64,000 bases of DNA. Origin: a virus. Position numbers and translations under genes: made by a program. The stretch covers positions 1-64,000 of the IMG/VR virus record IMGVR_UViG_3300006051_000001. One strand, written 5' to 3'. The first letter of the stretch is position 1. Every line of letters starts with the position of its first letter. Shown piece by piece: positions 3,696 through 27,009 of the stretch. The notes under the pieces are model-generated. The model was not told the origin of the DNA. It searched no databases and worked only from the letters and a program-made list of their open reading frames with translations.

Positions 3696-4088
3696 ATGTT
3701 CGAGAATTTAGAGTTACCTGACAGGGTGCTAGATGAAAGACACTTCACAGTTGTCGACATCACCGATCAGGTCGATCTGCTTAAGAGACACGGTCCATTC
3801 CATGAACCAGTAATGGAAGCATGGATGGCGCGGCACTACGCTAAGAATCATGGCGTAGCTTGTGTTAGTGCTAGTTTGTTCGATAGACCAGCCGAGCACA
3901 GCATGTTTGAAAGAATGCAAATGTCGTTAACTGCGACAGAGCTAGGGCTTCGTCCTGTTGACTTCCTTCCAGAGCCAGAAGATAACTGGCTGGATGAATG
4001 CGGCGTCTGGTTCTACGTTCGTGGAAACTATTTAGCAATGGGGAATAGCCGTGCTATTGAAAAATGTTGGCGACGACTGCGTAATTGA
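3696..4088 (+). CDS. Unknown protein, 130 aa, first of small-gene cluster
   Basis: First gene of a run of eleven tightly packed or overlapping small genes. It starts at an ATG after ATAGGGGACACGT, with GGGG as ribosome binding site. Residues 16-27 read HFTVVDITDQVD, a hydrophobic strand ending in Asp-Ile that recurs near the start of several neighbours. The rest is mixed charged and aromatic, ending in a basic segment (EKCWRRLRN). There is no recognisable catalytic motif. The cluster's position beside phuZ and its compact small genes suggest host-takeover or accessory functions, but this is only inference. Confidence 0.65.
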   Translation: MFENLELPDRVLDERHFTVVDITDQVDLLKRHGPFHEPVMEAWMARHYAKNHGVACVSASLFDRPAEHSMFERMQMSLTATELGLRPVDFLPEPEDNWLDECGVWFYVRGNYLAMGNSRAIEKCWRRLRN

Positions 4089-4503
4089 TTTCTCAGAGAT
4101 CAGTGACAATTTCTTCGGTGAAGCTACAAAGTTTACAAAAGAGCCAACATCCAGAGATAGACGAACTGTAGAACGTGTAGTTGGCGAGATGTTCGATGAC
4201 TACATGACGAAGAGCATGACTTGGACTAAATCGTTCCATGACTTCAATGAGGGGTACTTCATCAATCGGTTGCCTAAGTGCTGCCGCGATCATCCGAACA
4301 TCCGTACGATCATTATCGATGTTTACGATGAGATCTCCGATGTGATGGCTGAGGTGATGTCATTGCCTACATGGTACGACGTATCAATGCGTGTATCAGG
4401 AACCGCCATCCGTATGGAGGTCGGTGAAGACCAGCGTATAGTTCAGTGGACAGAAGAGCACGGTCATGAGTATTCGACTAACTACAACGGTAAAGGATGG
4501 TGA
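4051..4503 (+). CDS. Unknown protein, 150 aa, VVDI-type motif
   Basis: The likely start is a GTG, preceded by GGGGAA at a spacing of seven; no ATG fits. It overlaps the previous gene by 38 bases, a coupling distance repeated at the next junction. The early segment CVIDFSEISDNF resembles the VVDI strand motif of the preceding gene. The middle is charged (RDRRTVERVVGEMFDDY) and the C-terminal part has hydrophobic strands. No enzyme signature is visible. Function unknown; possible distant paralogue of its neighbours. Confidence 0.55.
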   Translation: MLLKNVGDDCVIDFSEISDNFFGEATKFTKEPTSRDRRTVERVVGEMFDDYMTKSMTWTKSFHDFNEGYFINRLPKCCRDHPNIRTIIIDVYDEISDVMAEVMSLPTWYDVSMRVSGTAIRMEVGEDQRIVQWTEEHGHEYSTNYNGKGW

Positions 4504-12639: not shown

Positions 12640-14652
12640 GTGAGCAAAGAAAACGACGGCTTCGAAATGAAAGACGAACCAACCACCCAACGCGCTGAAG
12701 CACCAGCTTCTGAGCGTCGCGAAGAACGCCGTGAAGAGCCACGCCGTGAAGAACGTAGCACCCGCCGTGATCGCGATGATCGTGAAGAAGGCGAAGAACG
12801 TGCGTTCACAATTGCAGACATCGGCCGTACCCTGAACGTTCGTCCTTCGAGCGGTGGCCTGTCCGACGCAGCTCTGTCTGCTCTGATGACCGCGTTCGAG
12901 AAGAACAAGGCATTCGACAAACCGAACCTGCCTGATGCAATCAAGCGCGACCGTTTCAAAGTGATTCCGCTGGACGGCTCCCTGGCCAAGTCCTCGCTGA
13001 ACTCGCTGCTGGTAACTCTGCCAATCGTCATCGGCGCTGGCAAGGCTACCCTGGTTTACGTTCTGACCATCGAACCAGCTGGCGGCCATGGCACTCGCAG
13101 CCAGGTCGATCGCGGTACGACCTACGACGCCATCGTCCTCCCTGAGGACCAACTGGCTACCAAGCCGTACAAACGCGCCATCGAAGATCAGGTCTCCGGC
13201 CTGAACAAAGATGCCAAGGTTGTGGTGATCGGTTCGCAAGTTCTGCTGTCGTCGGTTGTGGCGAAGCTGAACAAAGAAGAAAACAGCGCCGTCGTCGATC
13301 GTATCTTCGACAACGCCCTCGATGCACTGTGCGGCTATCGCGAAAACCTGGTCGACAAGGCCGGTGGTTCCCGCAACAGCGCATTCCGCATCAGCCCGAA
13401 AATGATCGGCCGCACCGGTCGTCTGGAAACCACCTGGAACTACAGTGGCCAGCCAGGCGAAGACAGCTCGGGTCAACCGATCCGTTCTGACTGCACCGGT
13501 AACCTGTTCTACAGCGAAGCCAGCAACGAAGACGACAACCAGTACGACCGTACCCCAATGGGCGAAATCCGTGCCGGTATCGACCTCTTCCTGGCCGACA
13601 ACCGTGAACAGCAGAACGGTCCTTCGTTCAGCCGTCGCCGCAAGTCGCAAGAAGATGGTGAACCGTTCATCCAAGCGGTATTGAACATCACCTCGATCGC
13701 GCCTGCTGCGAACTTCCCGTTCTCCCTGGAACTGGCGCTGCTGCTGTTGGCTCAGGCCAACCTGCAATCGAACGACTACCGCTGGGCTTCCCAGCTGCGT
13801 CCTCGCACTGCAATCAGCAACCCAGACGGCACCGGCGTGATGAAGCCTACCAGCAACATCAACTGCCTGCACCTCTTGAATCCGAACCGCGACTTCGCCA
13901 AGATCTTCGACGACGTGTCTCCGAACATGGACGACAACGATCTGAGCGATTACCTCGCGTTCACCGTGTTCCCGAAACTGGCGATCGGCATGATGATCCC
14001 ATCTTCGGGCGAGAAGTCCTCGGTTCTGTCGATCTTCGAAAGCATCGCGACCACTCGCGATACCGACGTTGCTCGTCGCCACACCAAGACGCTGTTCGAA
14101 GCTGCCGACGTTCTGTCGGGTAACCGCTTCAGCCGCGCCTACAAGGACCTGGCTGGTTCCGTCGACGTAGCTCCAGTTCGTTCGATGGGTACTCGTCAAC
14201 TGATCGGTACTTGGGTCGACACTCAGGGCAACCTGCGTGACCTGCGTGAATGGAACGTCCAGTCTCTCCTCACCGAAGTTGGCGAGAAGAACATCGATCT
14301 GGTGCAGGACTTCCAGTACACCTACGAAAACGACCGCAACACCGTGGACTTCTGCCTGGCAGAACGTCTGGGCTACCTCCAGAAGGTTGTTCCGGGCATC
14401 CGCGTTACCACCACTGCACCGCTGCTGGGCTTCGAGCCTGACTTCCTGGAAGCGCTGTCGCGTTCCCTGGACGCAGCTGACATGTCGAGCTACATGACTG
14501 CCGAAGGCGGTCTGAACACTCGTCGTCACGTTGGTGGCAGCGCCTACTCGCAGCTGGCAACTTCCGACATCGGCATCAGCCGTCGTCGTGGTTCCGACCG
14601 TACCACTGCCGATCGTGGCCGTGGCGGTCTGTTCGACTCGATCGACTACTAA
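12640..14652 (+). CDS. chmA: Chimallin (ChmA), phage nucleus shell protein
   Basis: In this phage group chimallin self-assembles into the protein lattice enclosing replicating phage DNA. The call rests on length (670 aa; relatives are about 600-630), strong GC-optimised codon use implying very high expression, repeated early-type promoter motifs, and direct linkage to the RNAP beta-prime N-half, the same order as phiKZ gp54-gp55. Residues 1-55 are an extended Arg/Glu/Asp tail (REERREEPRREERSTRRDRD); residues about 56-615 are a mixed fold; the end is Arg/Gly-rich (RRRGSDRTTADRGRGG). It starts with GTG after TAGGAGAG. The charged N-terminal tail seems longer than I remember in relatives. I could not align it, so some doubt remains. 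Confidence 0.85.
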   Translation: MSKENDGFEMKDEPTTQRAEAPASERREERREEPRREERSTRRDRDDREEGEERAFTIADIGRTLNVRPSSGGLSDAALSALMTAFEKNKAFDKPNLPDAIKRDRFKVIPLDGSLAKSSLNSLLVTLPIVIGAGKATLVYVLTIEPAGGHGTRSQVDRGTTYDAIVLPEDQLATKPYKRAIEDQVSGLNKDAKVVVIGSQVLLSSVVAKLNKEENSAVVDRIFDNALDALCGYRENLVDKAGGSRNSAFRISPKMIGRTGRLETTWNYSGQPGEDSSGQPIRSDCTGNLFYSEASNEDDNQYDRTPMGEIRAGIDLFLADNREQQNGPSFSRRRKSQEDGEPFIQAVLNITSIAPAANFPFSLELALLLLAQANLQSNDYRWASQLRPRTAISNPDGTGVMKPTSNINCLHLLNPNRDFAKIFDDVSPNMDDNDLSDYLAFTVFPKLAIGMMIPSSGEKSSVLSIFESIATTRDTDVARRHTKTLFEAADVLSGNRFSRAYKDLAGSVDVAPVRSMGTRQLIGTWVDTQGNLRDLREWNVQSLLTEVGEKNIDLVQDFQYTYENDRNTVDFCLAERLGYLQKVVPGIRVTTTAPLLGFEPDFLEALSRSLDAADMSSYMTAEGGLNTRRHVGGSAYSQLATSDIGISRRRGSDRTTADRGRGGLFDSIDY

Positions 14653-14675
14653 GTCGGCAGATGCGGTAAACTGAC

Positions 14676-14716
14676 ACGGGAGGAGGGGTTACCCCTCCTC
14701 CTGTTTCTTTTTTCTT
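14676..14716 (+). terminator. Rho-independent terminator after chmA
   Basis: A long GC stem (ACGGGAGGAGGGGT with ACCCCTCCTCCTGT) is followed by TTCTTTTTTC. Partial read-through could feed the RNAP gene only 18 bases downstream. Confidence 0.85.
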
Positions 14717-14733
14717 TATCTGCGAGAAGTGCC

Positions 14734-16224
14734 ATGGATTTGATTAATTACGATATCTACGAGCCACGTCAGCGTTATCCGGGGCGGAAGGGTATCTATC
14801 CGATGATTGAAGACTTCGACAAGATGTTCAAGAACTTGAGCATTAAGCCGATGTTAGCAAACGATCTGGATCTCGAAACAGATGAAGGTAAGCAGAAGTT
14901 CAACGATCTGGTCTACACTAAGTACGACGGGGATGTATTCTCGAACGTGCCATCGTGCCCATGCCGTAAGACTTCCGGTGGTAGCCGTATTCATGACAAC
15001 TGCATTCACTGTGGTTATGAAGTTCTGCCGATCACTGAACAGACGATCGAACCTATCGTCTGGGTAATGGCGCCCCCAGAAGTTCCTGGGTTCATCAACT
15101 TGACAATCTACCGGTTGCTCAAGGCCAGATTCACCAAGTCCTCATTCAGCGTCTTCGACTACATCCTTGATCCAAAGTACCGCCCTCCTAAGCTTAACAG
15201 CAAAGAAGAGCGTCTTATTGAAGCGATCGTACCTACTCGTGGGTTGGTCTACTTCCATAAGAACTTCGATGAGATCATGTCCAAGTTGTGCGCAATCAGG
15301 CACTTCGTAACAGCGGCCAAAGCTGCTAGCACGATGCGATTCATCGATCTACACAAACACCTGATCTTCTGTCGTTACATGCCGTTCCCATCCAAGATTG
15401 GTTTCATCGTCGAAGATGTGGGCGACCGTACGTATGTCGATCCAAAGATGGCGCCCGCACTGGATGCGCTCATCTGTCTTGGCAAGGTAGCATCGGCCAA
15501 GCGCATCTCGCTGTACGATCTTGAATCCCGGATCGCACGGTCAAGCAATAAGCTCTGCACCTATTACTCTGGTAACGAGCATCTCAAAATCTTTGACAAG
15601 AAAGGAGTATTGCGAAAACTGGTTTACGGTGTATCCCCGCACTTTACCTTCCGGACGGTGATTACCTCGAACCACAAACCTCACGATCACGAGTCTCTCG
15701 AGATTCCATGGGGTTCCGCTGTTCTGACGTTTAAGCTACACATCGCGAACAAGCTACGGAAGGAGAAGTATACTCCTAACGAAATCTTGACGCTGATCTA
15801 CGATAACGTCCTCCGCACACACCACCGCATTGAGAAGATCTTCGACGAGCTGATCGCCGAGTCTCCGGGTGGACGTGGGATGATGGCAGGCTTTACGCGG
15901 TTTCCATCGCTTAAGCGTGGTTCTACGCAAGGCTTCTATATCGACACGATCAAACGTGACCCTACCCAATTGAGTACATCCATCTCTGTGTTGACGCTTG
16001 TAGCGCCTAACGCCGACTTCGATGGTGACTACATGTCTGGACAATTGGCACTGGATAACGTGACTACACGGGCTTTCGAGCGCCTGAAACCAAGTACTGG
16101 GTTCATGGATCTCAAGAAGGTCTTCGGAGTGAGCAACCACGCCAACATACCGGCGCCGGTGATCTCAACTATCAACGCACGTATTGAGGAAGGAAACGAC
16201 CTATCAGTACCCATGGGAGATTGA
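14734..16224 (+). CDS. Non-virion RNA polymerase, beta-prime N-terminal subunit
   Basis: Residues 426-432 read NADFDGD, the universal catalytic motif of cellular beta-prime whose three Asp hold the active-site Mg2+. A zinc site near the N-terminus has Cys75, Cys77, Cys90 and Cys93 (CPC..CIHC), like the beta-prime zinc ribbon. The chain stops at 496 aa, soon after the active site; the rest of beta-prime is in the gene at 29697-31676. By position after chmA it corresponds to phiKZ gp55 of the non-virion enzyme, which transcribes phage genes after infection. GAGAAG lies before the ATG. The next gene begins one base after the stop. Confidence 0.92.
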   Translation: MDLINYDIYEPRQRYPGRKGIYPMIEDFDKMFKNLSIKPMLANDLDLETDEGKQKFNDLVYTKYDGDVFSNVPSCPCRKTSGGSRIHDNCIHCGYEVLPITEQTIEPIVWVMAPPEVPGFINLTIYRLLKARFTKSSFSVFDYILDPKYRPPKLNSKEERLIEAIVPTRGLVYFHKNFDEIMSKLCAIRHFVTAAKAASTMRFIDLHKHLIFCRYMPFPSKIGFIVEDVGDRTYVDPKMAPALDALICLGKVASAKRISLYDLESRIARSSNKLCTYYSGNEHLKIFDKKGVLRKLVYGVSPHFTFRTVITSNHKPHDHESLEIPWGSAVLTFKLHIANKLRKEKYTPNEILTLIYDNVLRTHHRIEKIFDELIAESPGGRGMMAGFTRFPSLKRGSTQGFYIDTIKRDPTQLSTSISVLTLVAPNADFDGDYMSGQLALDNVTTRAFERLKPSTGFMDLKKVFGVSNHANIPAPVISTINARIEEGNDLSVPMGD

Positions 16225-16225
16225 C

Positions 16226-16852
16226 ATGGCTTACATCGTAAGTGCTGATGATGACGTAATCCACGCTGCCACTCACGGCATCATGGACAGGGATGACTTG
16301 AGCTTCCTGCGAGATCGCATGGACAGCGCAATGACATCTGCTGGCGGATATGCATCCAGCTTCTTAAAGGCAGCTAGCGAAAAGCTGGCTAACTTCGATC
16401 TCGGCCGTCTACGGGATCGCGTGAGCGGCCTGCGGGATAGGTTCGGGAAACGTTGGGATGAAGATCGCATCGTTCTTCTGGCAACTCGTGAAGGGTTGCG
16501 TAATGCTAAACCGAAGATGCGTCGATTCACAATGGCTGAACCAAGAACCCGACTTCTCTGGCAACAGGGACGCTTGGAAGGCTATGGCGAATTGTACGAA
16601 GACGAAGAACCAGGCATGATCGGACGGGATCACACTCCGTACCGTGAAATCATGAACGGCGCTTACGTCAGCCACGACATTCCGGATGAGGATCACTTCG
16701 TGACCTACCTCGGCGTGCAGGATGAACATGGTGATGAACCATGTACGTTCAATGAGAAAGAAATGACCCGTCATGGGACATGGGCAGCTCAGCGTGGTTT
16801 CATCGATGAAGGCAAGCAAGATCCACTCAGCCCGATTGGTAACACACTGTAA
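16226..16852 (+). CDS. Unknown protein coupled to RNAP beta-prime N-half, 208 aa
   Basis: Start chosen at the ATG 16226 (MAYIVSADDDV) with GGGAGA four bases upstream, one base after the RNAP gene; a longer frame starting at 16184 lies inside that gene and lacks a site. The N-terminal part is helical with Arg/Asp-rich repeats (FDLGRLRDRVSGLRDRFGKRWD); the C-terminal part is acidic and His-rich. No known motif. Tight coupling to the polymerase subunit suggests related timing, not necessarily a related job. Confidence 0.7.
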   Translation: MAYIVSADDDVIHAATHGIMDRDDLSFLRDRMDSAMTSAGGYASSFLKAASEKLANFDLGRLRDRVSGLRDRFGKRWDEDRIVLLATREGLRNAKPKMRRFTMAEPRTRLLWQQGRLEGYGELYEDEEPGMIGRDHTPYREIMNGAYVSHDIPDEDHFVTYLGVQDEHGDEPCTFNEKEMTRHGTWAAQRGFIDEGKQDPLSPIGNTL

Positions 16853-16859
16853 AACGTAG

Positions 16860-16897
16860 AGCCCGGTGAAAGCCGGGCTTTATGCCACCCACTTTAT
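16860..16897 (+). terminator. Hairpin-TTTATGC element
   Basis: AGCCCGG / CCGGGCT stem followed by TTTATGCC and later TTTATTTTTG. The TATG (16881-16884) is 33 bases before the next start codon. Confidence 0.75.
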
Positions 16898-16916
16898 TTT
16901 TGTTAGGAATAGATGT

Positions 16917-17453
16917 ATGTTTTTAGTTAACGCGATGTTCAAACAACCCACCGCAGAAGATCCTGAAGCATTCGTAGAAATGACCCTCGAAGGGTCAAGC
17001 TTCGATACACGCGAAGATATCCTTCCAGAGTTAGGTATTGCTCTGAGTACAACTGACATCAGGTTTAGCTGGGAAGAAGCCCATGGTTTCGTAGCCGTAT
17101 TACGTGGATATGGTAAAGACATATCCACGTACATGGTTCCTTTCAAGTTCGATAGTGCTGAATTCGGTGCTGATGAGTTCAGTCTGTTAGACGGACATCG
17201 TGTTGCCGAAAGAATCGGCATGATCGTTGCCGGTCAAGTGGAAGAGTATGATAGACCATCGTGCATCTACTTCATGGATGAGTTGGAAGATATCAGCTAT
17301 AAACCTTACGTCAAAGGAATGTATCGTAACCGTAAGTACGGGGCAGCTTTCTTCGTACATGGAGCAAGGCGGGGAATACACGCTAAACCACCATCTAAAG
17401 ATCCAGGAGCTGAACATGTCGAAACACGTAGGGCAATACACGACCCGTTGTGA
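16917..17453 (+). CDS. Unknown protein, 178 aa
   Basis: Start chosen at the ATG 16917 (MFLVNAMFKQPTAED) with TAGGAA upstream; the frame is open earlier but there it would cross the terminator. The protein alternates strands and acidic loops, with GFVAVLRGYGKDI near the middle, and ends basic with a GARRGIHAKPPSKDP segment. No domain is recognised. The next gene starts 38 bases before its end with a much better site. Confidence 0.6.
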   Translation: MFLVNAMFKQPTAEDPEAFVEMTLEGSSFDTREDILPELGIALSTTDIRFSWEEAHGFVAVLRGYGKDISTYMVPFKFDSAEFGADEFSLLDGHRVAERIGMIVAGQVEEYDRPSCIYFMDELEDISYKPYVKGMYRNRKYGAAFFVHGARRGIHAKPPSKDPGAEHVETRRAIHDPL

Positions 17454-17634
17454 AATCGCATTAGCTATCCTAAGCATGGAGGAGGATAACGCACTTACGC
17501 CAGAACAGGGCGATGTATTAGTTGTAGCCACGATGGAAGCTCCAGATGACGCTGTAATGGAAATCTCTCTCGCTGATACCGGTTATCTGGTTAAGCTCAC
17601 CTCAGGCAAGACTACTATCACGGTAGATCCGTAG
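17416..17634 (+). CDS. Unknown small protein, 72 aa
   Basis: The ATG at 17416 (MSKHVGQYTTRCE) has CAGGAG six bases upstream, inside the previous gene (38-base overlap). The protein has a helix (EIALAILSMEEDN) followed by a run of strands (QGDVLVVATMEAPDD, GYLVKLTSGKTTITV), suggesting a small beta fold. It is the last gene before a terminator. Function unknown. Confidence 0.65.
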   Translation: MSKHVGQYTTRCEIALAILSMEEDNALTPEQGDVLVVATMEAPDDAVMEISLADTGYLVKLTSGKTTITVDP

Positions 17635-17644
17635 GCAGCATAAA

Positions 17645-17685
17645 CACGGGGAGCTTCGGCTCCCTAGTGCTTACTTCTTTTTTTT
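17645..17685 (+). terminator. Rho-independent terminator
   Basis: GGGAGC-TTCG-GCTCCC stem extended by CAC/GTG, followed by CTTCTTTTTTTT. GCATAAA just upstream (17638-17644) is the mirror of the TTTATGC element although the next gene is on the same strand. Confidence 0.9.
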
Positions 17686-17724
17686 GTCCAAATAGGATGT
17701 CCGATTCTATTAGGCAGATCCGTT

Positions 17725-18150
17725 ATGGCCACTAAAGTAGCAACACTCGGTAAGGCCGGTTGTGTCGAAGATATTGATCTCAAGATCGATTACATGATGT
17801 GCTGTTACTTCTTTTCGAAATACAGCCAGACAACCTACTTCAAAGACAACGTACACTCGCTTACAAAGGTCATACAGCAATACGGCAACGATCCCTTTGC
17901 CATTGCTGAGAAGTTGAAACAAGACCTCTACAGCTTCCTCTCAGAAGGTTTCACGAATGTGACCTTGGATGTTACTTTGGACACCACAACGGTGGGTCCA
18001 GGTATTTCTTTACTAATCGAGGGAATAGTAAGCGACGGAGACAGCATCGATGTAGATTCACGAAGCATCGGTTACGCTCTCACCGCCAAAGATTCCATGC
18101 TTAAAACCATCCTAAACACCAACAGCGGTACTCCGCTGTACTCTTCCTAA
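17725..18150 (+). CDS. Unknown protein, 141 aa
   Basis: ATG with only a weak upstream site (GGCAGATCCGTT). The N-terminal half contains Cys and Tyr/Phe-rich helices (IDYMMCCYFFSKYSQTTYF), the C-terminal half is Thr/Ser/Asp-rich with strands (VTLDVTLDTTTVG). No motif assigns a function. It may be co-transcribed with the abundant-protein gene nine bases downstream. Confidence 0.6.
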   Translation: MATKVATLGKAGCVEDIDLKIDYMMCCYFFSKYSQTTYFKDNVHSLTKVIQQYGNDPFAIAEKLKQDLYSFLSEGFTNVTLDVTLDTTTVGPGISLLIEGIVSDGDSIDVDSRSIGYALTAKDSMLKTILNTNSGTPLYSS

Positions 18151-18159
18151 GGAAGCACC

Positions 18160-18678
18160 ATGTCCACCGAAATCAAAGAAGCAGCAGTTGAAGCAGCAGC
18201 CCCTCAAGCAATCATGATGCCAGAAACTCCTGAGCAGCTGAAAGTGTTCGTGGCCGCCGCCGTGACCGATCTGCTGAACATCCCGGAAAACGCTACCCAC
18301 TTCGCCCGCGTCGTTCTGTCCGGCGCCCTGCGCGCTCTGAACAACGAAGCTCAGCACAAAGCCCAACTGGCCATGCGTCCGGTCCTGACCCGCACTCCGT
18401 ACCCAGGTTGCCTGCGCGCCGTGATCACCGCCAATGCCGAAGCCAGCGACGAGCCGCTGACCGTGGACATCACCATCCGCGAAGTTGGCAGCGAAGAGTG
18501 GACCGACTCGAAAGCCTCCCCAGTAGTTCTGCAAGAGCTGGCCAAGCTGGTTCTGTCGCAAGCTACCGTGCCTGGCGACGTGTGGTACATCACCACCAAC
18601 CAAGCGGTCGACAAGCAGCTGGACGCAGCCGCTGAAGCCCTGCTGAACCAGGCTCAAGCTGACGCCGAACCGGTTTAA
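18160..18678 (+). CDS. Unknown, probably abundant Ala-rich protein, 172 aa
   Basis: Codon choice is strongly GC-optimised (ctg, gcc, acc, cgc), like chmA and phuZ and unlike its immediate neighbours, which suggests very high expression. AAGGAA precedes the ATG. The protein is acidic and Ala/Leu-rich, with helical ends (EIKEAAVEAAAPQA; AAEALLNQAQADAEPV) and a beta-containing middle (CLRAVITANAEAS, LTVDITIREVG). Its size and abundance would suit a nucleus-associated or DNA/RNA-coating protein, but there is no direct evidence. Two stem-loops follow. Confidence 0.75.
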   Translation: MSTEIKEAAVEAAAPQAIMMPETPEQLKVFVAAAVTDLLNIPENATHFARVVLSGALRALNNEAQHKAQLAMRPVLTRTPYPGCLRAVITANAEASDEPLTVDITIREVGSEEWTDSKASPVVLQELAKLVLSQATVPGDVWYITTNQAVDKQLDAAAEALLNQAQADAEPV

Positions 18679-18709
18679 TTACCGGCATGACAGGGAGCTT
18701 CGGCTCCCT
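18670..18709 (+). terminator. Two hairpins after abundant-protein gene
   Basis: CCGGT / ACCGG has the stop codon in its loop; AGGGAGC-TTCG-GCTCCCT (18692-18709) follows but has no T run, so termination may be partial. Confidence 0.6.
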
Positions 18710-18727
18710 CGTCTCAAGGAGTTCTTT

Positions 18728-19429
18728 ATGTCCCGCACTGGTTTACCTCGTGAAAGAAAGCCTGTAATCCGCAACAAGCCCCGTGAGGATCTTGAGGATA
18801 AGGGCTCTGAAGCTTATCGGGCTTATGTCGCGGAAGGTCTGGAACGGATGGCTAAGGCTGCCACAGAGATCAACGACTCCACGGCTGAGCGTAAGCGTAA
18901 AGTCCCTGAGCAATACTTCGTCAACATCCTACTGCCGGTTCTGCGTAAGTGGATTCGTCGGGAAGAAGTTGAAATCGGCCACTACCTGAACGTAGCCGAT
19001 GGTCTCAACAATGAGATCGAAGTTGTCGATCAGGAAGGCGTGAAACTGTACGATGTGCCCCCATTGTTTGTAGACGTACCCACTCGAGTGGCGCGTCATG
19101 AACCGGGTGTCAACATTCCGACCATCCACAAGATGGTTCAGATTCAGGGGATGCATGTTGATAACAACGACATGCGTCAGGTCTTTACGATCGAGAACGA
19201 TCTGGTAGACATCCTGGCTCCGCGTGCAGAAGACGCCTCCAAGACGCGATGCTTGGTGATGTTGTGCCACATCTACGACCGCTATGAGCTACCTCTTGAG
19301 GAACTCGTTGGCGAAACCCTCGCTCCCGTTATTGCAGCGGCCTTACGGGCTGCTAAAAAGCCCGGCTCTAAAGCCATTGTAGAGAGCGGTAATAATGCAA
19401 GATCAGACGACGACTTTATCATCGACTAA
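18728..19429 (+). CDS. Unknown protein upstream of SbcD-like nuclease, 233 aa
   Basis: AAGGAG lies six bases before the ATG. The N-terminus is very basic (TGLPRERKPVIRNKPRED), followed by a helical region and a beta-rich segment (DVPPLFVDVPTRVARHEPG). The C-terminus is Lys/Ala-rich and then acidic (DDDFIID). It overlaps the nuclease gene by 35 bases, so the two are probably co-translated. It does not look like an SbcC ATPase: no Walker motifs or long coiled coil. A DNA-binding partner is possible but unproven. Confidence 0.7.
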   Translation: MSRTGLPRERKPVIRNKPREDLEDKGSEAYRAYVAEGLERMAKAATEINDSTAERKRKVPEQYFVNILLPVLRKWIRREEVEIGHYLNVADGLNNEIEVVDQEGVKLYDVPPLFVDVPTRVARHEPGVNIPTIHKMVQIQGMHVDNNDMRQVFTIENDLVDILAPRAEDASKTRCLVMLCHIYDRYELPLEELVGETLAPVIAAALRAAKKPGSKAIVESGNNARSDDDFIID

Positions 19430-20582
19430 AGGCACCGTCATTAAGGTGGGGCTTAGCCGCCTCACCTACGCTATCAGACAAGCGGGTGACCTGCTTATCG
19501 CTGTTATCAGCGACGTACACCTCGGCCATAGCCGAGTCAAGTCTGCAAAGATTATCGATGTACTGGAGAAGACCTTCCACGAAGCGCGCATGATTGCTCT
19601 GGATGTGATCATTATCTCCGGTGATCTGTTTGACAAGCGTCTGGCTTATGACAGCGATGACGCGTTTGTAATCACCCGGTGGATGGAACGGTTCCTGAGA
19701 CTGGCTGCGAAACACAACGTAGCTATACGAATCCTTGAGGGTACGCCTAGCCACGACAACAGACAGTCCCGCTGGATGATTCAGTACAACGAAATGATTG
19801 AGGCTAACGCCGACATCAAGTACTACGAGAACATCGTCATTGATGAACTCATCCCCGGTGGTCCGACTGTTCTGTATATTCAGGATGAAGTGAACCACGA
19901 CGCTAACAAGACCTGGAAGATGGTTCAGGAATTGATGCGGGAGCAAGGCGTAGATCAGGTAGACTTTGCCGTAATGCACGGCATGTTCACTTATCAGGAG
20001 CCTGTACGCAGTATCTCGAGCCACCTTGAGGAACGGTACGAAGCAATCGTGCGCCACTTGATCATCATTGGTCACAACCACCATCACACGACCAGTGGAA
20101 AGATTCGAGTACCATCTTCTACAGAAAGACTTAGGTTTAACGAAGAGGATGACAAAGGACATCTCCAGTTCTGCTATTCCCCAACGGATGGCGTTTACGA
20201 TGAGTTCTTTGTGGTCAATGAAGAAGCAACACTCTTCACGACAATAGATGTAGTGGGCAAGACACTCAACCAAGTGATCGCAACCCTCAAGAAACTCAAT
20301 GGCAGCCCAGACGGTAGTTGGTTCCGTTTGAAGCTTAGCCGAAACGATGAGGCTTATACAGCCTTAACCCGAATAACCGTAGAGTTCCCGCAGTTCAACA
20401 TCTCCACCAAAGTAGTGGATGGCGTTGGCGACCTCGATGTAGATGACACTGGATTGGTTGTTGAGACCGTGACCCTGACTTCGATCAGGCCAGACACGCT
20501 CATGCAGCTTATCCTCCCACGTCTCGATGGTACGCCTGATGACATCATGAGGGAGATCGTGAAGGTGCTGGAGAAAGGCTAA
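19395..20582 (+). CDS. SbcD/Mre11-like metallophosphoesterase nuclease
   Basis: The calcineurin-type metal-binding motifs are in order: ISDVHLGH (residues 38-45, Asp40 and His42), SGDLFDKR (75-82, Asp77), EGTPSHDNR (115-123, His120 with Asp121 in place of the usual GNHD), MHGMF (194-198) and GHNHHH (226-231). This matches Mre11/SbcD double-strand-break nucleases, which trim DNA ends. The C-terminal about 130 residues are a capping region. Length 395 aa fits. No SbcC/Rad50 partner is seen in this window. It starts within the previous gene, with GAGAGCGG upstream. Likely role: processing phage or host DNA during replication and repair. Confidence 0.88.
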   Translation: MQDQTTTLSSTKGTVIKVGLSRLTYAIRQAGDLLIAVISDVHLGHSRVKSAKIIDVLEKTFHEARMIALDVIIISGDLFDKRLAYDSDDAFVITRWMERFLRLAAKHNVAIRILEGTPSHDNRQSRWMIQYNEMIEANADIKYYENIVIDELIPGGPTVLYIQDEVNHDANKTWKMVQELMREQGVDQVDFAVMHGMFTYQEPVRSISSHLEERYEAIVRHLIIIGHNHHHTTSGKIRVPSSTERLRFNEEDDKGHLQFCYSPTDGVYDEFFVVNEEATLFTTIDVVGKTLNQVIATLKKLNGSPDGSWFRLKLSRNDEAYTALTRITVEFPQFNISTKVVDGVGDLDVDDTGLVVETVTLTSIRPDTLMQLILPRLDGTPDDIMREIVKVLEKG

Positions 20583-20595
20583 CAGGAAGAGATAC

Positions 20596-21453
20596 ATGAC
20601 CGTTGAGAATATTTCACGAGAGAAGCTGTCCGAAAGAGCCATGGGACAGTTTCCAATCTCCATTGCTACAAGTCTGGCAATTGAGTCTCTGGTCGGTATC
20701 CTTCCTGAGGCTCCTACGGACGCGCCTGAGATCTTCAAGCGCGACCTGCTACTGATCAACATCCGTACCCTTATCCGCAACCTACTGGGCTCTGTGGACA
20801 AGGAGGCACGCGCATTACTCGAAGAGTACACGATGGCTGAAGCCGTCAGTAACGAGATGCGTGTAATCGAAGAGATCATCTCTGAGACTTCGGATGGTCG
20901 CTGTGAAGTGAAGTTCTATCACTGCACTTACGGTGATGTTCCACGCAAGTACAAGCAAGCGTTGTTGAAAGGTCCAACCACAACAGCGCAACACATGTAC
21001 TGGGCTCAGAAGAATCTGGTGATCAAGAATCTCCTGACTCAATTCGAGAGCGGTTCTCCTATTGAACAGTGGACAACTGACTTCCCGGACTTCAATTACA
21101 AGACAGTGCTTCTGACGCATTATCCGGTGGACCTGCTACAAAGGTATCGGTTCACCTCGCTAGCGCTCTTAGAATCGCACACAGGGGCTATAAAGACACC
21201 TCTTATGTGGAACACGAAGTTAGTCAGTGGGAAGGAACATCCGAACCTTCCTTTTGACAAGATGACCTTGCAGATGTTTGGTGATGGGATTCTATTCAGC
21301 CCGATGCCTATCAAGATCCGCAAACGTGTTCTGGAGCTAGCCGAGACCTACAAATGGACTCCGGCTACCACTAAGGCTTTGATCATCGACTCAGCTGCGT
21401 CTCGGAAAGACCCAGCCTTGGAGATGTTGATCAAGGATCTCTATAGTGCGTAA
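20596..21453 (+). CDS. Unknown protein between nuclease and ssb, 285 aa
   Basis: AGGAAGAG precedes the ATG. The protein has a helical N-terminal half (including two Ile/Leu-rich helices, residues 45-80), a basic patch (PRKYKQALLKG), and a conserved-looking segment FNYKTVLLTHYPVDLLQRYR. No nucleotide-binding or catalytic signature could be identified. Placement between the SbcD-like nuclease and ssb suggests a replication or repair role. I do not recognise the family. Confidence 0.7.
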   Translation: MTVENISREKLSERAMGQFPISIATSLAIESLVGILPEAPTDAPEIFKRDLLLINIRTLIRNLLGSVDKEARALLEEYTMAEAVSNEMRVIEEIISETSDGRCEVKFYHCTYGDVPRKYKQALLKGPTTTAQHMYWAQKNLVIKNLLTQFESGSPIEQWTTDFPDFNYKTVLLTHYPVDLLQRYRFTSLALLESHTGAIKTPLMWNTKLVSGKEHPNLPFDKMTLQMFGDGILFSPMPIKIRKRVLELAETYKWTPATTKALIIDSAASRKDPALEMLIKDLYSA

Positions 21454-21518
21454 ATAGTTATGAATAGGGACAATGGAATGTCCAGAAACCACATTCATCC
21501 TCCCTCAGGTGATTTTAC

Positions 21519-22331
21519 ATGTCGCAACAACCCGAAAAGAAACGCCGCGAACCAGAAGCCATTGACGACGGTAAACTCCGTCTGTACGGCGCTCCTCAAA
21601 AGGAAGGCGCACGTCAGACAATGATCCGGGTGAAGCTGGATTCGAACAACAACAACCCGATCATCGAGGTCGACTTCGGCTACAAGACCGAACCGAAAGC
21701 GGGCAAGTCTGAAGGCTTCCCTGTCAAGATCGATACGCCGATGGCGCCGATCCCTTTCCGTACCCTGATGAACCTGATCGTCCGCGTTGCGAACTACAAC
21801 GGCGAAGTGTCGTTCGAAGTCGACAACTGGGGCTTCCCATTCATGTGGGATGCGGATCAGCGTAAGAGCGTTCGTGCCAAAGAGAAGATGATCATCTCTC
21901 GCTTCCAAGTGGCCAAACGTGAAGACGGCGTTGTAACCTTCGGCATCACTGCCAAAGGCAAGCCAGACATGGTTCACGAGTTCAAATCTGACGAATACCA
22001 CATGATCATGCAAAATGGTCAGCCGGTTGACGTGAAGATCTCCAGCCGTGAAGCAGCGATCGCTACAGCCGAAGCCTGGCTGGAAGTGTACTACGAGCGT
22101 TTCACTAACAAGTGGGAAGAGCCTGAGTACCAGAAGAAGCGCCGCCTGGAAAACATGCAGAAAGCTCAAGGTGGTGGTGGCGGTTACCAACAGCAGCGTC
22201 AGAACAATGGCGGCGGTGGTGGCAACTACAACAACAACCAACAGCAGCGTCCTCCTCAGCAACAGCAACAGCAATCTGCGCCGAACCTCGGCGACGGTGG
22301 CAACGGCTTTGACGACGATATCCCTTTCTAG
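21519..22331 (+). CDS. ssb: Single-stranded DNA-binding protein
   Basis: The last nine residues, NGFDDDIPF, are the classic acidic tip of bacterial SSB that binds replication and repair proteins. It follows a long disordered linker (about residues 205-260) rich in Gly, Gln and Asn, with runs of Gly and Gln. The N-terminal about 200 residues are beta-rich with basic and aromatic residues, consistent with an OB-type domain although divergent. AGGTGA precedes the ATG. Size is 270 aa, longer than typical bacterial SSB (about 175). It is followed by a strong terminator. Role: coating single-stranded phage DNA during replication. Confidence 0.85.
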   Translation: MSQQPEKKRREPEAIDDGKLRLYGAPQKEGARQTMIRVKLDSNNNNPIIEVDFGYKTEPKAGKSEGFPVKIDTPMAPIPFRTLMNLIVRVANYNGEVSFEVDNWGFPFMWDADQRKSVRAKEKMIISRFQVAKREDGVVTFGITAKGKPDMVHEFKSDEYHMIMQNGQPVDVKISSREAAIATAEAWLEVYYERFTNKWEEPEYQKKRRLENMQKAQGGGGGYQQQRQNNGGGGGNYNNNQQQRPPQQQQQQSAPNLGDGGNGFDDDIPF

Positions 22332-22353
22332 GGTCTGAGAGCATTTAGCGTTT

Positions 22354-22394
22354 GTGATACAGGGCCTCACAGCCTTGTATCACGGGCTTTATGC
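22354..22394 (+). terminator. Long hairpin-TTTATGC terminator after ssb
   Basis: GTGATACA and TGTATCAC plus inner pairs give about twelve pairs around CTCACA, followed by GGGCTTTATGCC. Confidence 0.8.
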
Positions 22395-22418
22395 CGCCTT
22401 AACGTAAAAATACACAGG

Positions 22419-22428
22419 CATACATTAC
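22419..22428 (+). promoter_or_regulatory. Early-type promoter motif CATACATTAC
   Basis: Matches the TATACATTAC family at nine of ten positions and ends 43 bases before the chosen start codon at 22472, almost the same spacing as at 27433. Confidence 0.6.
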
Positions 22429-22471
22429 TTATTAGAGCAAGCACCATATAGTGACCAAGCGGAGTGTATTG

Positions 22472-24061
22472 ATGGAATTCAGCATCACTGGATTTACCAA
22501 ACGAAGTTTCTCAGCCGTCGCAGTTTCTCATCCCGGTGAAAACGATATCATCATCAATGCCGCAGGTTACGCTAACGCGAAACCCGGTGCAGTAAAGAAT
22601 GATGAAGAGTTCGGAATGCGCGTCGAGCTGTTCAGCGAGATCAACGATCTCATCAGCCGTTATAGCAAGGGGGAACAACAAAAGCTGTACGATTGCTACG
22701 CCCGCCTTGACACGGTGCTGGACTCGTACGGTACAGATGTGAAAGCCAGTGAGTTCATGGAGCTGTTGCAAGATATCGTTAAAGGTATCTTCGACATCGT
22801 GAAGTTCGAAGACCTGCGTGATTACCTGACCAGTAATAAGAACATCAAGTTCCCCGCAGAACTGGCTGACACTTACGTTACAGCAGATAAGATCACTCCG
22901 ATCTACATGGAGCGTACTTATCTGAAACGGGAATACATCGATCTGGCAGCAGTGGCATTGGGCCTGCGGTGCATGATTCCTGTTTGGGGTGCTTTCCTTC
23001 CAATCGCTATAAAGGAAGAAGGGCCGAAGAAGAAGGAGTACGTTGCGTACAAGCTTCTGGATACCTGCCTGCTTAAGGAGTGTCCTGCATTCGATCGTCT
23101 GGAAACTTACGTTCGGGCAAACACTACCGAGATGGAACACGAGATGGCTATCATCTTCGAGTTCCTGTCATCTGAGGAGATCCCTGTCTTCTTGATGGCA
23201 TTGGCATTGATCCGTAAGGTTTCGATTGCACCGTTGTCCGCTGAGACGGATAAGGATCACTTGATGAAGGTGGTCTTCAACTACGTCTGCGGTAACAACA
23301 ACAGACTTCCAGCGGCATTCGGCGGTAACATCCGTTCGAAGATCGATGTGGAAGCAGCAACAGACGACAATAGTTCGGTCTGGTGCTACTACAAAATGAA
23401 GGAGCAGATCAGTACTGGCGACCTCTGCATCTTCCAGCTGTACATCACCGATTATCTTGAAGCGGCTCGCGCCATTGATCAAGAGATCACCGACGAACAA
23501 ACCGAGATGTGCGTAGCACGCGCGCAGAAGCTGGCACGGTTTGATCCGAATGACGCACAGATCGCTCTCTGCATCTGGGTAATGTCTACAGTGGTAGCAG
23601 GTTGTGCGATCGAGATGTTCGACCGTAACACTCTGTTCACGGCCATGGGTATCTCCCAGACCGTACTGTGGAAGTGGGGTTTCCATCAATTGGCAATCCT
23701 GCAAACAGCAGCTCCCGTCCAGATGGCTGACGACGAGATGATGACCCCGGTTCCTAGAACCAAGATCAGCGACGAGAACATGAAACAACTGGAATACATC
23801 TATCCTTACACAATGCCGGAGAGCAAGAAGGATAGTGGTCAATCACCAAACGTTGGGGTACGTGGGGTAGAAGACGCGGCAAATGTATTCTTCAAGAACG
23901 AATGGGAACCTCAGTGCCCGCGCCAATTGGCAGCGAAGTTCGAAAGGTCAGACGTTACCCGGCGTCTCCAGGTTTCCAGTGACTTCCGCGATGAGCTGGC
24001 TGAGTTGTTTATCAAGCTGGACGGTTACGTACGTCACATCCCTATCCCGGTAATGGACTGA
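22472..24061 (+). CDS. Candidate fifth subunit of the non-virion RNA polymerase (gp68-like)
   Basis: Start chosen at ATG 22472 (MEFSITGFTKRS) with GCGGAG seven bases upstream; the frame is open from a GTG at 22451. The 529-aa protein is mostly helical, with no catalytic motif. It lies upstream of two further genes and then the RNAP beta and beta-prime C-halves, the position of phiKZ gp68, the extra subunit of about this size required for promoter recognition. It also has the same promoter type as the beta C-half gene. The assignment is by size and synteny only; no sequence motif proves it. Confidence 0.5.
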   Translation: MEFSITGFTKRSFSAVAVSHPGENDIIINAAGYANAKPGAVKNDEEFGMRVELFSEINDLISRYSKGEQQKLYDCYARLDTVLDSYGTDVKASEFMELLQDIVKGIFDIVKFEDLRDYLTSNKNIKFPAELADTYVTADKITPIYMERTYLKREYIDLAAVALGLRCMIPVWGAFLPIAIKEEGPKKKEYVAYKLLDTCLLKECPAFDRLETYVRANTTEMEHEMAIIFEFLSSEEIPVFLMALALIRKVSIAPLSAETDKDHLMKVVFNYVCGNNNRLPAAFGGNIRSKIDVEAATDDNSSVWCYYKMKEQISTGDLCIFQLYITDYLEAARAIDQEITDEQTEMCVARAQKLARFDPNDAQIALCIWVMSTVVAGCAIEMFDRNTLFTAMGISQTVLWKWGFHQLAILQTAAPVQMADDEMMTPVPRTKISDENMKQLEYIYPYTMPESKKDSGQSPNVGVRGVEDAANVFFKNEWEPQCPRQLAAKFERSDVTRRLQVSSDFRDELAELFIKLDGYVRHIPIPVMD

Positions 24062-24101
24062 AAAGTTCAATCCCCTAGAGTATTAAGCACAGGAGTAATT
24101 C

Positions 24102-25691
24102 ATGGAACTTGTTAAACTTATCTTCGTGGAAACTGAAGGCAGCGACACTCCAGTCATTCGCCCTTACGAAACCTCGTTGAAGAAAGACGACCTCGATCTG
24201 TTTGCAAAGGCAACCGATGATGGTGCGAACCTCAGCACTATCCGGCTGGCCAAGGTTGTAGCTCCACTCCTCGGTCCATCGAACCGCCGGCAGCACAAGT
24301 CCCACATCGCCAACGGCTGGTCCGAATCCCGGATCATGTTCGGCATGGTTGTTAAGGTGATGAACCGTGACAACGCCAGCACCTACGAGTATATCGTGGG
24401 CTATACCGACAACAGCGAACACGCCCGTCGTGGCGACACCGCGAAGTTCGATGCTGGCATGAAAATGTACTTCAATAACATTACGAGGGTTCACATGCAG
24501 GAATCCCGTCACCGTAATGATAACATCTGGGTGCCGAAGATTCAGGCGCATGACCAGATCCTCCTGCGTTCCAGCCTGACCGGTTCTGATCGTGGCACTA
24601 CCCGTGGCGGCGATCGTCCAGTTACTCTGCGTCCTACCGACTTGTTCAAGCGCGGTGGTGCAGATGCGGCATTCGGGTCGTTCATGCGTGATAACGATTC
24701 GAACGTAAACAATACCGTTGGTTCGTTCAGCTCGGCTATCCGTGCATCGAACGTTGTCAACAACAGCCAGACCGCATACGCGGCCCGTAACCTGAATGCG
24801 TGGATGCAGGCGAGTAATTCGCCTAACGATGCGTACGTTGGTGACGGTAATGATGAAGACACCATCCAGGCAGCTTCTGATCGTTTGGCAGAGAACTCTC
24901 TGGAACTCGATCCGTATCTGGAGCGTATCAAGCGTGATACCAATATTCTCCGTGAAGGTTGCATTACTTTCGGCGAACTGATGGACATGAACGAAGACTT
25001 CGATGAAGATCGTCAGTTGATGTTCGTTCCGTTGGACAAGCGTAAGCGCGGTGGTTTCATCAACAACTCCGCATGGGGTGAAGATACCAACGAGGCAATC
25101 GCTGCGACCATCATCGCAAACTCCCTGCCCGGCATTCTGATCAACTCGATGTATTCGTCGGTATCTGGTCTGGTGCTGAACAGCCGTGCGCGCTTCGGCG
25201 AGTACAAAGTGGTCTGCTCTGAGCCAACTCCGTTTGCTCCAGGCATGTCGGTTAAGGCGAACTGGCCATACTTCGAAAGTCAGATCGAACACGTTCTGAT
25301 GGAAGAAGTTGGTTGCGGTGGTGCGTTTGAGTTTGAAGCGTACATCGACGCGAACATCGACCAGTACATCAAGATCCGTATCCGGATGGATGGTGGTGAA
25401 GAAGCATCGTTCAACTTCCCAGCTTACGCGTCCAGTCTTCTGGCGCCTACGCAGGATAAAGACTTCAAGTCGCTGGACAAAATGTCGAAAGGCGTTATCG
25501 ATCTGGCTTCCGGTCTGTCGAACATGCGGATGTCTCGCGCAGGCATCGGGTCTCAAGAAGATGGTCTCAACACTGGCAGCGAAAGCCGCATCAAGTTGGG
25601 CGCCAGCAAAGAGCCTCGTTCTCGTGACAATGATTACAGAGCCGCTCCAGCAGCAGCCTCTGGCGATAAGAAAGGTGGTAAGGGCTGGTAA
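24102..25691 (+). CDS. Unknown 529-aa protein, positional match to phiKZ gp69
   Basis: CAGGAG precedes the ATG. The N-terminal 150 residues look like a mixed alpha/beta domain, residues about 165-275 are Asn/Ser/Asp-rich with low complexity, and a second folded region (about 285-480) follows. The last 50 residues are a Lys/Arg/Gly/Ala tail ending KKGGKGW. The next gene ends GGRGGRGW, so the two share a C-terminal Gly-Gly-basic-Gly-Trp signature. In phiKZ the gene at this place (gp69) has, as I recall, been reported as a factor for protein import into the phage nucleus; a similar role is inference from position. Confidence 0.65.
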   Translation: MELVKLIFVETEGSDTPVIRPYETSLKKDDLDLFAKATDDGANLSTIRLAKVVAPLLGPSNRRQHKSHIANGWSESRIMFGMVVKVMNRDNASTYEYIVGYTDNSEHARRGDTAKFDAGMKMYFNNITRVHMQESRHRNDNIWVPKIQAHDQILLRSSLTGSDRGTTRGGDRPVTLRPTDLFKRGGADAAFGSFMRDNDSNVNNTVGSFSSAIRASNVVNNSQTAYAARNLNAWMQASNSPNDAYVGDGNDEDTIQAASDRLAENSLELDPYLERIKRDTNILREGCITFGELMDMNEDFDEDRQLMFVPLDKRKRGGFINNSAWGEDTNEAIAATIIANSLPGILINSMYSSVSGLVLNSRARFGEYKVVCSEPTPFAPGMSVKANWPYFESQIEHVLMEEVGCGGAFEFEAYIDANIDQYIKIRIRMDGGEEASFNFPAYASSLLAPTQDKDFKSLDKMSKGVIDLASGLSNMRMSRAGIGSQEDGLNTGSESRIKLGASKEPRSRDNDYRAAPAAASGDKKGGKGW

Positions 25692-25734
25692 AGCCCTTTT
25701 CACAAAACCCTATTAATGACCACGGGAATCAGTG

Positions 25735-27009
25735 ATGAGTGTAAGTAAGCTCGATCGAATGAATGCCTTCAATCGGAAGATCCTACTCGAAGTAGGCGTT
25801 TTCGAAGAAGAAGTTGATGATGGGCATCTGTCCTATCTGAAGGACGGTAAGCCGTCTCCAGTAACCTTGAACAAGACGCGCCTGTGCATTACTGTACAGC
25901 GTATCCTGAAAGAAGGTCTGGGTGAAGAACGTACCGGGTTCCAGCCTCTTGCTGAGCAGATCACCGAAGGTCCAAGTCCTGTACTGAACGCCTTCAAGAA
26001 CTACATCGGTGAGCGCATCAAGGCAACGGTTCGCCATATCGGCCTGTCGTTGATGGAACTGGCATCCGACTCCAAGCGGCATAAAGGCATGTCTGCCAAG
26101 GCTTCCAAGTATCTGACCGCTCTGGCAGGTATTGGTGAAGTCGATGAAAAGACTGTCGATACCATGCGCAAGGTGTTCGATGCGGTAAGTCAGGTTCCTG
26201 AGAAGCACCTGATCTCCATTATCCTGAAGGCTAAGACCGACGACGGTAGTCTGCGTCAATCGTTCGTATCCTTTCCGATCATGGATGAAGCCGATAGCGA
26301 AGAGACCGAAACCTTCTTTGGCGTGAAGATGCCACGGAAGACCAAGGACAAAGCGCTGATTGTATCGGTTCTCGAATACATCCTGGGCGACGAGCCAGCT
26401 CGCAAGATGTACACCTCCGGCAGTAAGAACGGCAACTCGCCGTACTTCCACAGCCTGTTGTTGTCCTTCCACAAGCTGGCAACTCGGTTGAACGACATCC
26501 TCAACGTGCATTCGGCCAAGTGCCCATCGTTCGAAGAGCTGAAGTTCAATCTGGACTGGACCGACGAACTCGATAACTTCGACGACTTCGCGAAGGTTTG
26601 CAGCCGAGCAGTTCCTGCTCTGCCGGGTAACACCGGTAAGGAAATCGACGAAGAACGTTCTGCGTTCGAAGCAAGTGCAAGTGATGTTGGTGCCGATGAT
26701 GATCTGCCGTGGAATGAACCTAAAGCCAAACTCAGCATCGGTAGCGATGACGAGAAGCGTCCGGCCGCTGGTTCGAGTTTCCGCGACACTGTTAACAGCT
26801 CTCGTTCGAGCCGTGATCGTGATGATGATCGCTCGGATAGCCGTTCGAATCATGGAAGCTTCCGTGACCTGATGGGTGGCAAGAGCCGTGACCGCGATCG
26901 TGATGATCGTGACAGCCGTCGTGAAAGCCCGAGCTGGCGCTCAGGCCGTGACCGTGACGACCGTGACCGTGATAGCGGCCGTGGTGGACGCGGTGGCCGT
27001 GGCTGGTAA
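25735..27009 (+). CDS. Protein with RD/RS/RGG-rich tail, positional match to phiKZ gp70
   Basis: Start at ATG 25735 (or the GTG just before it) with GGGAA upstream. Residues 1-310 are a mostly helical folded part; residues about 320-424 are low-complexity, first acidic (DVGADDDLPWNEPKAK), then dense in Arg-Asp, Arg-Ser and finally Gly-Arg repeats, ending GGRGGRGW. RGG and RD/RS tails are typical of RNA-binding and condensate-forming proteins. Lying between the gp69-like gene and the RNAP genes, it is a candidate nucleus-associated RNA-binding protein. The folded part has no motif I recognise. Confidence 0.7.
   Translation: MSVSKLDRMNAFNRKILLEVGVFEEEVDDGHLSYLKDGKPSPVTLNKTRLCITVQRILKEGLGEERTGFQPLAEQITEGPSPVLNAFKNYIGERIKATVRHIGLSLMELASDSKRHKGMSAKASKYLTALAGIGEVDEKTVDTMRKVFDAVSQVPEKHLISIILKAKTDDGSLRQSFVSFPIMDEADSEETETFFGVKMPRKTKDKALIVSVLEYILGDEPARKMYTSGSKNGNSPYFHSLLLSFHKLATRLNDILNVHSAKCPSFEELKFNLDWTDELDNFDDFAKVCSRAVPALPGNTGKEIDEERSAFEASASDVGADDDLPWNEPKAKLSIGSDDEKRPAAGSSFRDTVNSSRSSRDRDDDRSDSRSNHGSFRDLMGGKSRDRDRDDRDSRRESPSWRSGRDRDDRDRDSGRGGRGGRGW

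Follow-up and report, generated by a model that had tools for sequence, protein, structure and literature searches.

Matched C-terminal ends of PicA and gp70 point to a shared, co-evolving attachment tag at the phage-nucleus gate

Why should two adjacent, unrelated proteins of a nucleus-forming jumbo phage (chimallivirus) end in the same few residues? The question arises in the window analyzed here, bases 1-64000 of a 188,198-base virus record (IMG/VR IMGVR_UViG_3300006051_000001). It contains the conserved chimallivirus block in the order chimallin (ChmA), parts of the non-virion RNA polymerase (nvRNAP), a phiPA3 gp61-family gene, a gp68-type nvRNAP subunit, PicA, a gp70-family gene, and then the RNA polymerase (RNAP) beta and beta' genes, an order that matches 20 reference phages by synteny. 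PicA ends in DKKGGKGW and gp70 in GRGGRGGRGW. An initial annotation had grouped both proteins with the shell protein ChmA on account of their Arg-Asp (RD) and Arg-Gly-Gly (RGG) type tails, and had suggested that the Gly-Gly-basic-Gly-Trp terminus is a common docking or condensate signal for the phage nucleus. The tails that it described are all present (65% charged residues in the ChmA N-terminal tail, KKGGKGW in PicA, GGRGGRGW and 20 RD/DR dipeptides in gp70), and here we ask what the shared end represents.

The window's PicA matches phrog_3141 and lies between the gp68 nvRNAP subunit and gp70, an order that is constant in the phages compared; by sequence and gene order it is the ortholog of PicA/Imp1 of phiKZ, phiPA3, and Goslar (PMC11087766). 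Its neighbor combines a core match to phrog_3520 with a disordered tail in the structural model, and is the ortholog, in the same conserved block, of phiKZ gp70 and phiPA3 gp64, the latter a protein located at the shell (PMC10643120). The two are as unrelated as they had appeared: no homology is detectable, and with an hhalign probability of 0.1% we rejected homology or duplication. Searches with PicA and gp70 using phmmer gave no matches. Within one genome, matching Trp ends are unusual and not decisive, as a terminal Trp occurs in 6 of 165 conserved families of the 95% relative and two adjacent ones are expected at about 0.1% per pair, over some 200 pairs. That they are not a chance event is shown by comparison across phages.

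PicA and gp70 end alike in most chimalliviruses, with letters that vary by lineage (W/W, F/F, Y/Y, L/L, I/I, and V/V). Our main comparison covered 93 loci, for which IMG/VR loci were gathered using the neighboring gp66 as search gene (the PicA and gp70 alignments lacked enough conserved stretches), and includes the pairs RSW/RSW, RDW/RDW, RSY/RSY, GSL/GSL, TSL/TSL, FGF/FGF, GLI/GLI, GLV/GLV, and GLL/GLL. In all, about 257 IMG/VR loci match gp66. The last residue is identical at 57 of 93 loci, vs. 15 expected, and of matching class at 75, vs. 30 expected (P<=5e-5 for both, the floor of 20,000 permutations). When loci are dereplicated at 38% gp68 identity, 11/28 retain an identical last residue (2.7 expected).

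Under a null model in which each trait in turn was simulated on the phage tree (concatenated gp66, gp68, gp55, and beta from the 68 non-redundant phages used in tree analyses), class matches reach 51/68 compared to 14.4 expected (standard deviation 5.7, maximum 38 in 5,000 simulations); this count treats L/M and I/V as separate hydrophobic classes, and pooling them gives 54/68. Identity is confined to the extreme terminus, with 45, 26, and 20 of 68 phages identical at positions -1, -2, and -3 (11.0, 7.7, and 7.8 expected) and the match gone by -6. A held-out set of 25 contigs new to the analysis, drawn from two later IMG/VR scans, supplied 24 loci with both genes, of which 16 share the last residue (3.4 expected); among lineages below 70% gp68 identity to any used, the count is 14/21 (3.3 expected). 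The held-out loci add the endings QGV/GGV, NFI/SFI, and TSY/RPY, and W/W reappears in two lineages that share no more than 28-30% identity with any phage in the first set. Moreover, sister lineages switch both ends jointly (I to L twice, L to V, I to V, and F to Y). The ends of PicA and gp70 are therefore matched beyond chance and ancestry.

Genome-wide tests, run on eight related genomes and the window's own with the whole genome of LucasX left out, indicate how exclusive this relationship is. Among 6,614 independent family pairs in eight genomes, PicA/gp70 ranks first, agreeing in 8/8 classes and in 13/24 letters (runner-up, 8). An initial all-pairs screen had returned seeming competitors, which were paralogous families on the same open reading frame (ORF) and disappeared once such families were excluded. 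A survey of 165 conserved families from nine genomes found just two, PicA and gp70, whose ends track the lineage residue in every one of the eight genomes scored. The same last-residue test applied to the ends of ChmA, ChmC (presumably the phiPA3 gp61/phiKZ gp67 family), gp55, gp66, gp68, and beta against those of PicA and gp70 gave values near expectation; two of the many control comparisons reach a P of about 0.02, and none comes near the PicA/gp70 pair. Other conserved Trp ends of the window's clade do not follow lineage in other clades. With the ends of these control proteins unmatched, we rejected the idea that shell or nuclear proteins at large carry one C-terminal signal; the shared end is not a general signal for the phage nucleus. 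The Arg/Gly end ascribed to ChmA exists as a region (19% R and 16% G over the last 31 residues), whereas the actual terminus is FDSIDY and its last residue does not match the PicA and gp70 ends. The literal GG-K/R-GW ending was likewise rejected as a family motif: it is kept in two IMG/VR contigs encoding 95%-identical relatives, is absent from more distant phages, and is confined to the window's species group. A comparison of C-termini across chimalliviruses upholds the shared end as a real signal, changing together in PicA and gp70, but does not uphold its Gly-Gly-basic-Gly-Trp form.

The tails that carry these ends also vary together. In phylogenetic contrasts across phages with the core-protein background removed, charged fraction covaries among the gp70, PicA, and ChmA C-terminal tails (r = 0.66, 0.66, and 0.64; P about 1e-9 to 4e-8), bearing out the suggestion that the three proteins share a tail chemistry (r about 0.65). 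Covariation is weaker for the ChmA N-terminal tail (0.35-0.43), is 0.38-0.40 between the gp68 C-terminus and the three tails, and is absent for the ChmC tail in the same contrasts. The ChmA N-terminal tail is 24% R in the window, charged in the window's clade, and partly neutral in other lineages. In nearly all relatives the gp70 core continues into a low-complexity tail of varying composition: rich in RD/RG in the window's clade, DT01, Moabite, Centimanus, EaH1, pVa-21, and SPLA10, in contrast to the neutral Q/M/P/G-rich tail of the phiKZ group. In the window, residues 304-424 are 19% R, 25% D/E, and 47% charged, with the 20 RD/DR dipeptides falling in 121 residues vs. a single one in the 303-residue core. 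By composition, this tail qualifies as an alternating R/D mixed-charge domain, with long R-D repeats similar in make-up to the arginine-rich mixed-charge domains of nuclear speckles (PMC9324279). Unlike those, gp70 is a phage protein, and the composition of its tail is replaceable among chimalliviruses by neutral Q/G/M/P.

Published work places the phiPA3 relatives of ChmA, PicA, and gp70 at the nuclear shell, which agrees with the grouping of the shell protein and the two genes: phiPA3 gp63 and gp64 are seen at the shell by microscopy and co-purify with ChmB (PMC10643120). Self-assembly of the ChmA shell through N- and C-terminal segments is known for 201phi2-1 and Goslar (PMC9365700). PicA (phiKZ gp69, phiPA3 gp63) is reported to be an essential protein-import factor that forms a punctum at the nuclear periphery in phiKZ, phiPA3, and Goslar; PicA tagged at its C-terminus with superfolder green fluorescent protein (sfGFP) reaches the periphery yet does not rescue a Goslar PicA knockdown, which its authors read as the C-terminus mattering (PMC11087766). 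The end is thus probably not needed as a localization signal, contrary to what had been supposed from the window. Goslar's own pair, PicA and the gp70 homolog Goslar_00173, ends in KGNF/VNRF; for this E. coli phage, rescue of the knockdown by untagged PicA has been published.

Given this pattern, we consider it rather probable that the ends of PicA and gp70 are one short C-terminal docking peptide for one co-evolving pocket in the import machinery. The peptide would sit on the disordered tails of two unrelated folded proteins and comprise about three residues, small or basic ones followed by a hydrophobic last residue with a free carboxylate. PicA and gp70 would both dock it in one pocket, or in two equivalent ones, on a common partner at the nuclear shell, and a change in a lineage's pocket would be followed by change in both peptides, so that every lineage has a variant of its own (W for the clade of the window; F, Y, L, I, or V elsewhere). 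The charge of the surrounding tails, tuned jointly with the ChmA C-terminal tail, may provide a shared electrostatic environment at the shell. We infer the common receptor and its place in the import complex, as well as a role for the end in a step after localization, the last because tagged PicA reaches the periphery and still fails to rescue (PMC11087766). Change of the two motifs in step is as expected when ligands and pocket evolve together, and the shell localization and ChmB co-purification of phiPA3 gp63 and gp64 (PMC10643120) also count in favor of a shared docking peptide.

Several observations weigh against this interpretation. The match is broken, with the hydrophobic class pooled, in 14 of 68 phages, mostly one clade of enterobacterial phages and its near kin in which gp70 has gained a C-terminal Arg, often behind an aromatic residue; for this reason the rule is common but not universal, and it does not extend to all chimalliviruses. 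Four of ten further reference phages also fail to match. Five do (Phabio, RVTF4, phiKZ, Viktualia, and Goslar), although four of these are kin of the already-sampled phiKZ group, and PCH45 has an R end in both proteins. The independent-pairs test, limited to separate switches, contains no opposed switch (3/0/0 for aromatic vs. aliphatic, 1/0/0 for W vs. F, 5/0/2 for I/V vs. L/M), but with too few switches it is underpowered and p is not below 0.06. A scan for the receptor across about 4,200 columns in twelve block proteins returned leads only (gp70 residue 175, ChmA Y438, and gp66 A198), none significant given thousands of tests. Finally, localization of PicA-sfGFP with a blocked C-terminus indicates that the end is not a shell-targeting signal, unless untagged phage PicA carries the tagged copy (PMC11087766).

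An attractive lead among these concerns gp70 itself, whose core could be the receptor for the end of a neighboring gp70 copy and for that of PicA, linking both at the shell. Such self-binding would account for why exactly PicA and gp70 match. At residue 175, most lineages with L/I/V ends carry a bulky aliphatic side chain (V/L/I/M), and several separate aromatic-end lineages carry a small one (A/S/T), as expected of a size-complementary pocket in which the invariant R174 would receive the carboxylate. However, the column is exploratory, as the third of about 4,200, with gp66 A198 and ChmA Y438 scoring equally and locus L105 an exception to the pattern, and we regard this version as rather unlikely. 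A separate receptor would be dispensable if the tails packed like with like in a mixed oligomer whose symmetry favors identical ends. Most class-matched loci are indeed identical (57 of 75, among 93), and the single PicA punctum suggests a higher-order state (PMC11087766), but only three residues match, the preceding tails are dissimilar in sequence, and the gp70 tail is predicted to be disordered, making such packing improbable.

Both ends might also meet a host or phage quality-control or processing factor, such as a protease or tail-recognition chaperone, that they avoid or use alike. Such factors typically recognize hydrophobic residues at the C-terminus, and hosts differ among lineages; yet a factor of this kind should affect many proteins, whereas 2 of 165 conserved families follow the lineage residue, and we judge it very improbable. 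Coincidence, shared ancestry, or DNA copying between neighbors might be suggested by the adjacency of the genes and by the sharing of ends by descent within clades. This is contradicted by the tree-aware null, the held-out lineages, the all-pairs screen, and codon usage: of 101 identical residues, just 43 are encoded by one and the same codon in both genes, and copying of DNA between the two genes was therefore rejected, leaving this explanation exceedingly improbable.

Features of the window that bear on the proposed docking peptide are collected in Table 1. ChmA is assigned by a phrog_4795 match spanning residues 10-638 and by PF25677 (Chimallin_Phikzvirus) above its own cut-off. The gp70 core gave no match in a PDB fold search at E<=0.001 and 13 significant matches in BFVD, of which the named ones are phage proteins of unknown function.

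Table 1 Coordinates of features in the window (pLDDT, predicted local distance difference test; aa, amino acids).
Feature	Position	Strand	Basis
ChmA (chimallin), nuclear shell protein, 670 aa, GTG start	12640..14652	+	phrog_4795 E=2e-36; PF25677 E=1e-10; synteny with 20 phages
ChmA N-terminal R/E/D tail, residues 1-54	12640..12801	+	65% charged vs. 23% in core
ChmA C-terminal R/G tail, residues 640-670	14557..14649	+	tail charge covaries with PicA and gp70 tails
phiKZ gp59-family homolog, 208 aa	16226..16852	+	homolog of phiPA3 055, annotated similar to phiKZ gp059
phiPA3 gp61/phiKZ gp67 family	21519..22331	+	phrog_3284; orthologs in 22/22 phages
nvRNAP subunit, phiKZ gp68 family	22451..24061	+	phrog_3209; phiPA3 062/phiKZ gp068 by synteny
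PicA/Imp1 (phiKZ gp69, phiPA3 gp63), 529 aa	24102..25691	+	phrog_3141 E=3e-58; phiPA3 063, annotated similar to phiKZ gp069
PicA C-terminal tail past family core, residues 477-529	25530..25688	+	PHROG match stops at residue 476; 32% charged
PicA C-terminal tripeptide KGW	25680..25688	+	co-varies with gp70 end
gp70/gp64-family shell-associated protein, 424 aa	25735..27009	+	phrog_3520 E=2e-48; phiPA3 064, annotated similar to phiKZ gp070
gp70 folded core, residues 1-303	25735..26643	+	AlphaFold2, most residues pLDDT >90, 57-sequence alignment
gp70 R174 and residue 175, candidate binding site for C-termini	26254..26259	+	R174 invariant; residue 175 covariation exploratory
gp70 disordered RD/RS/RG tail, residues 304-424	26644..27006	+	pLDDT mostly <50; 20 RD/DR dipeptides
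gp70 C-terminal tripeptide RGW	26998..27006	+	co-varies with PicA end

The gp59-family protein, putatively Imp3, had no match in a PDB fold search at E<=0.001. Imp1 function reportedly depends on Imp3, which a review includes among ChmA proximity-labeling proteins in wording that would also fit the gp64/gp70 family. The phiPA3 gp61-family protein carries a G/N/Q-rich linker followed, in most phages, by an acidic-hydrophobic tip (FDDDIPF or variants) that resembles the C-terminal tip of bacterial single-stranded DNA-binding protein. In Viktualia (L231 4616-6007), a coding sequence deposited on the minus strand overlies gp70, whose reading frame is open on the plus strand and terminates in GNGMGLI; the minus-strand entry is probably a misannotation. 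A long polyacidic stretch extends the C-terminus of RNAP beta in LucasX, Moabite, Centimanus, PhiEaH1, and KpLz-2_45 (L017, L018, L019, L020, and L031) and is absent in the window.

Terminal Trp residues were also seen in other families. The window's RNAP beta' ends in MPGW, which is not kept in relatives. The ORF at 4051-4503 (+), 150 aa, ends in NYNGKGW; of the three other W-clade genomes, two have orthologs with a terminal W (IRDW and NKRW), while the orthologs in the third and in other clades lack one, making the ORF product a possible third bearer of the ending, in the W clade only. A family of about 143-280 aa (G000 133545-134387, outside the window; L127, which is G001 242886-243317), GNAT-like by eye only, ends in W in all five W-clade genomes after variable residues (LLAW, LLTW, VWGW, VLGW, and SIAW). 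The 268-aa protein at G001 84980-85786 has a terminal W in the W clade, DT01, G012, and G013, and is constant, unlike the switching PicA and gp70 ends.

PDZ ligands are C-terminal short linear motifs of about three last residues with a hydrophobic end and a free carboxylate. The PicA and gp70 ends resemble them in length, hydrophobic end, and presumed free carboxylate, and differ in that the specificity of two ligands shifts in step between lineages. Our literature search found no paper on a matched C-terminal motif; in the available part of the PicA/Imp1 report the C-terminus was already suspected to be important, and a peptide matched with the neighboring gene or switching by lineage is not described there (PMC11087766).

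Previously, PicA was recognized as essential with a suspected C-terminus, and gp64/gp70 had a location without a function. The matched ends point to a shared, co-evolving attachment tag at the phage-nucleus gate: a co-evolving three-residue end links PicA to gp70, names candidate residues, and lets sequence comparison seek the receptor. It also shows that two unrelated proteins can hold a short motif in common while its specificity changes again and again in both. We tentatively raise the possibility that the C-terminal peptide is a lineage-private key of the import gate, with PicA and gp70 engaging the same co-evolving pocket, perhaps in the gp70 core. If so, the gate of one phage would reject the parts of another, and co-infecting phages would maintain separate import systems.

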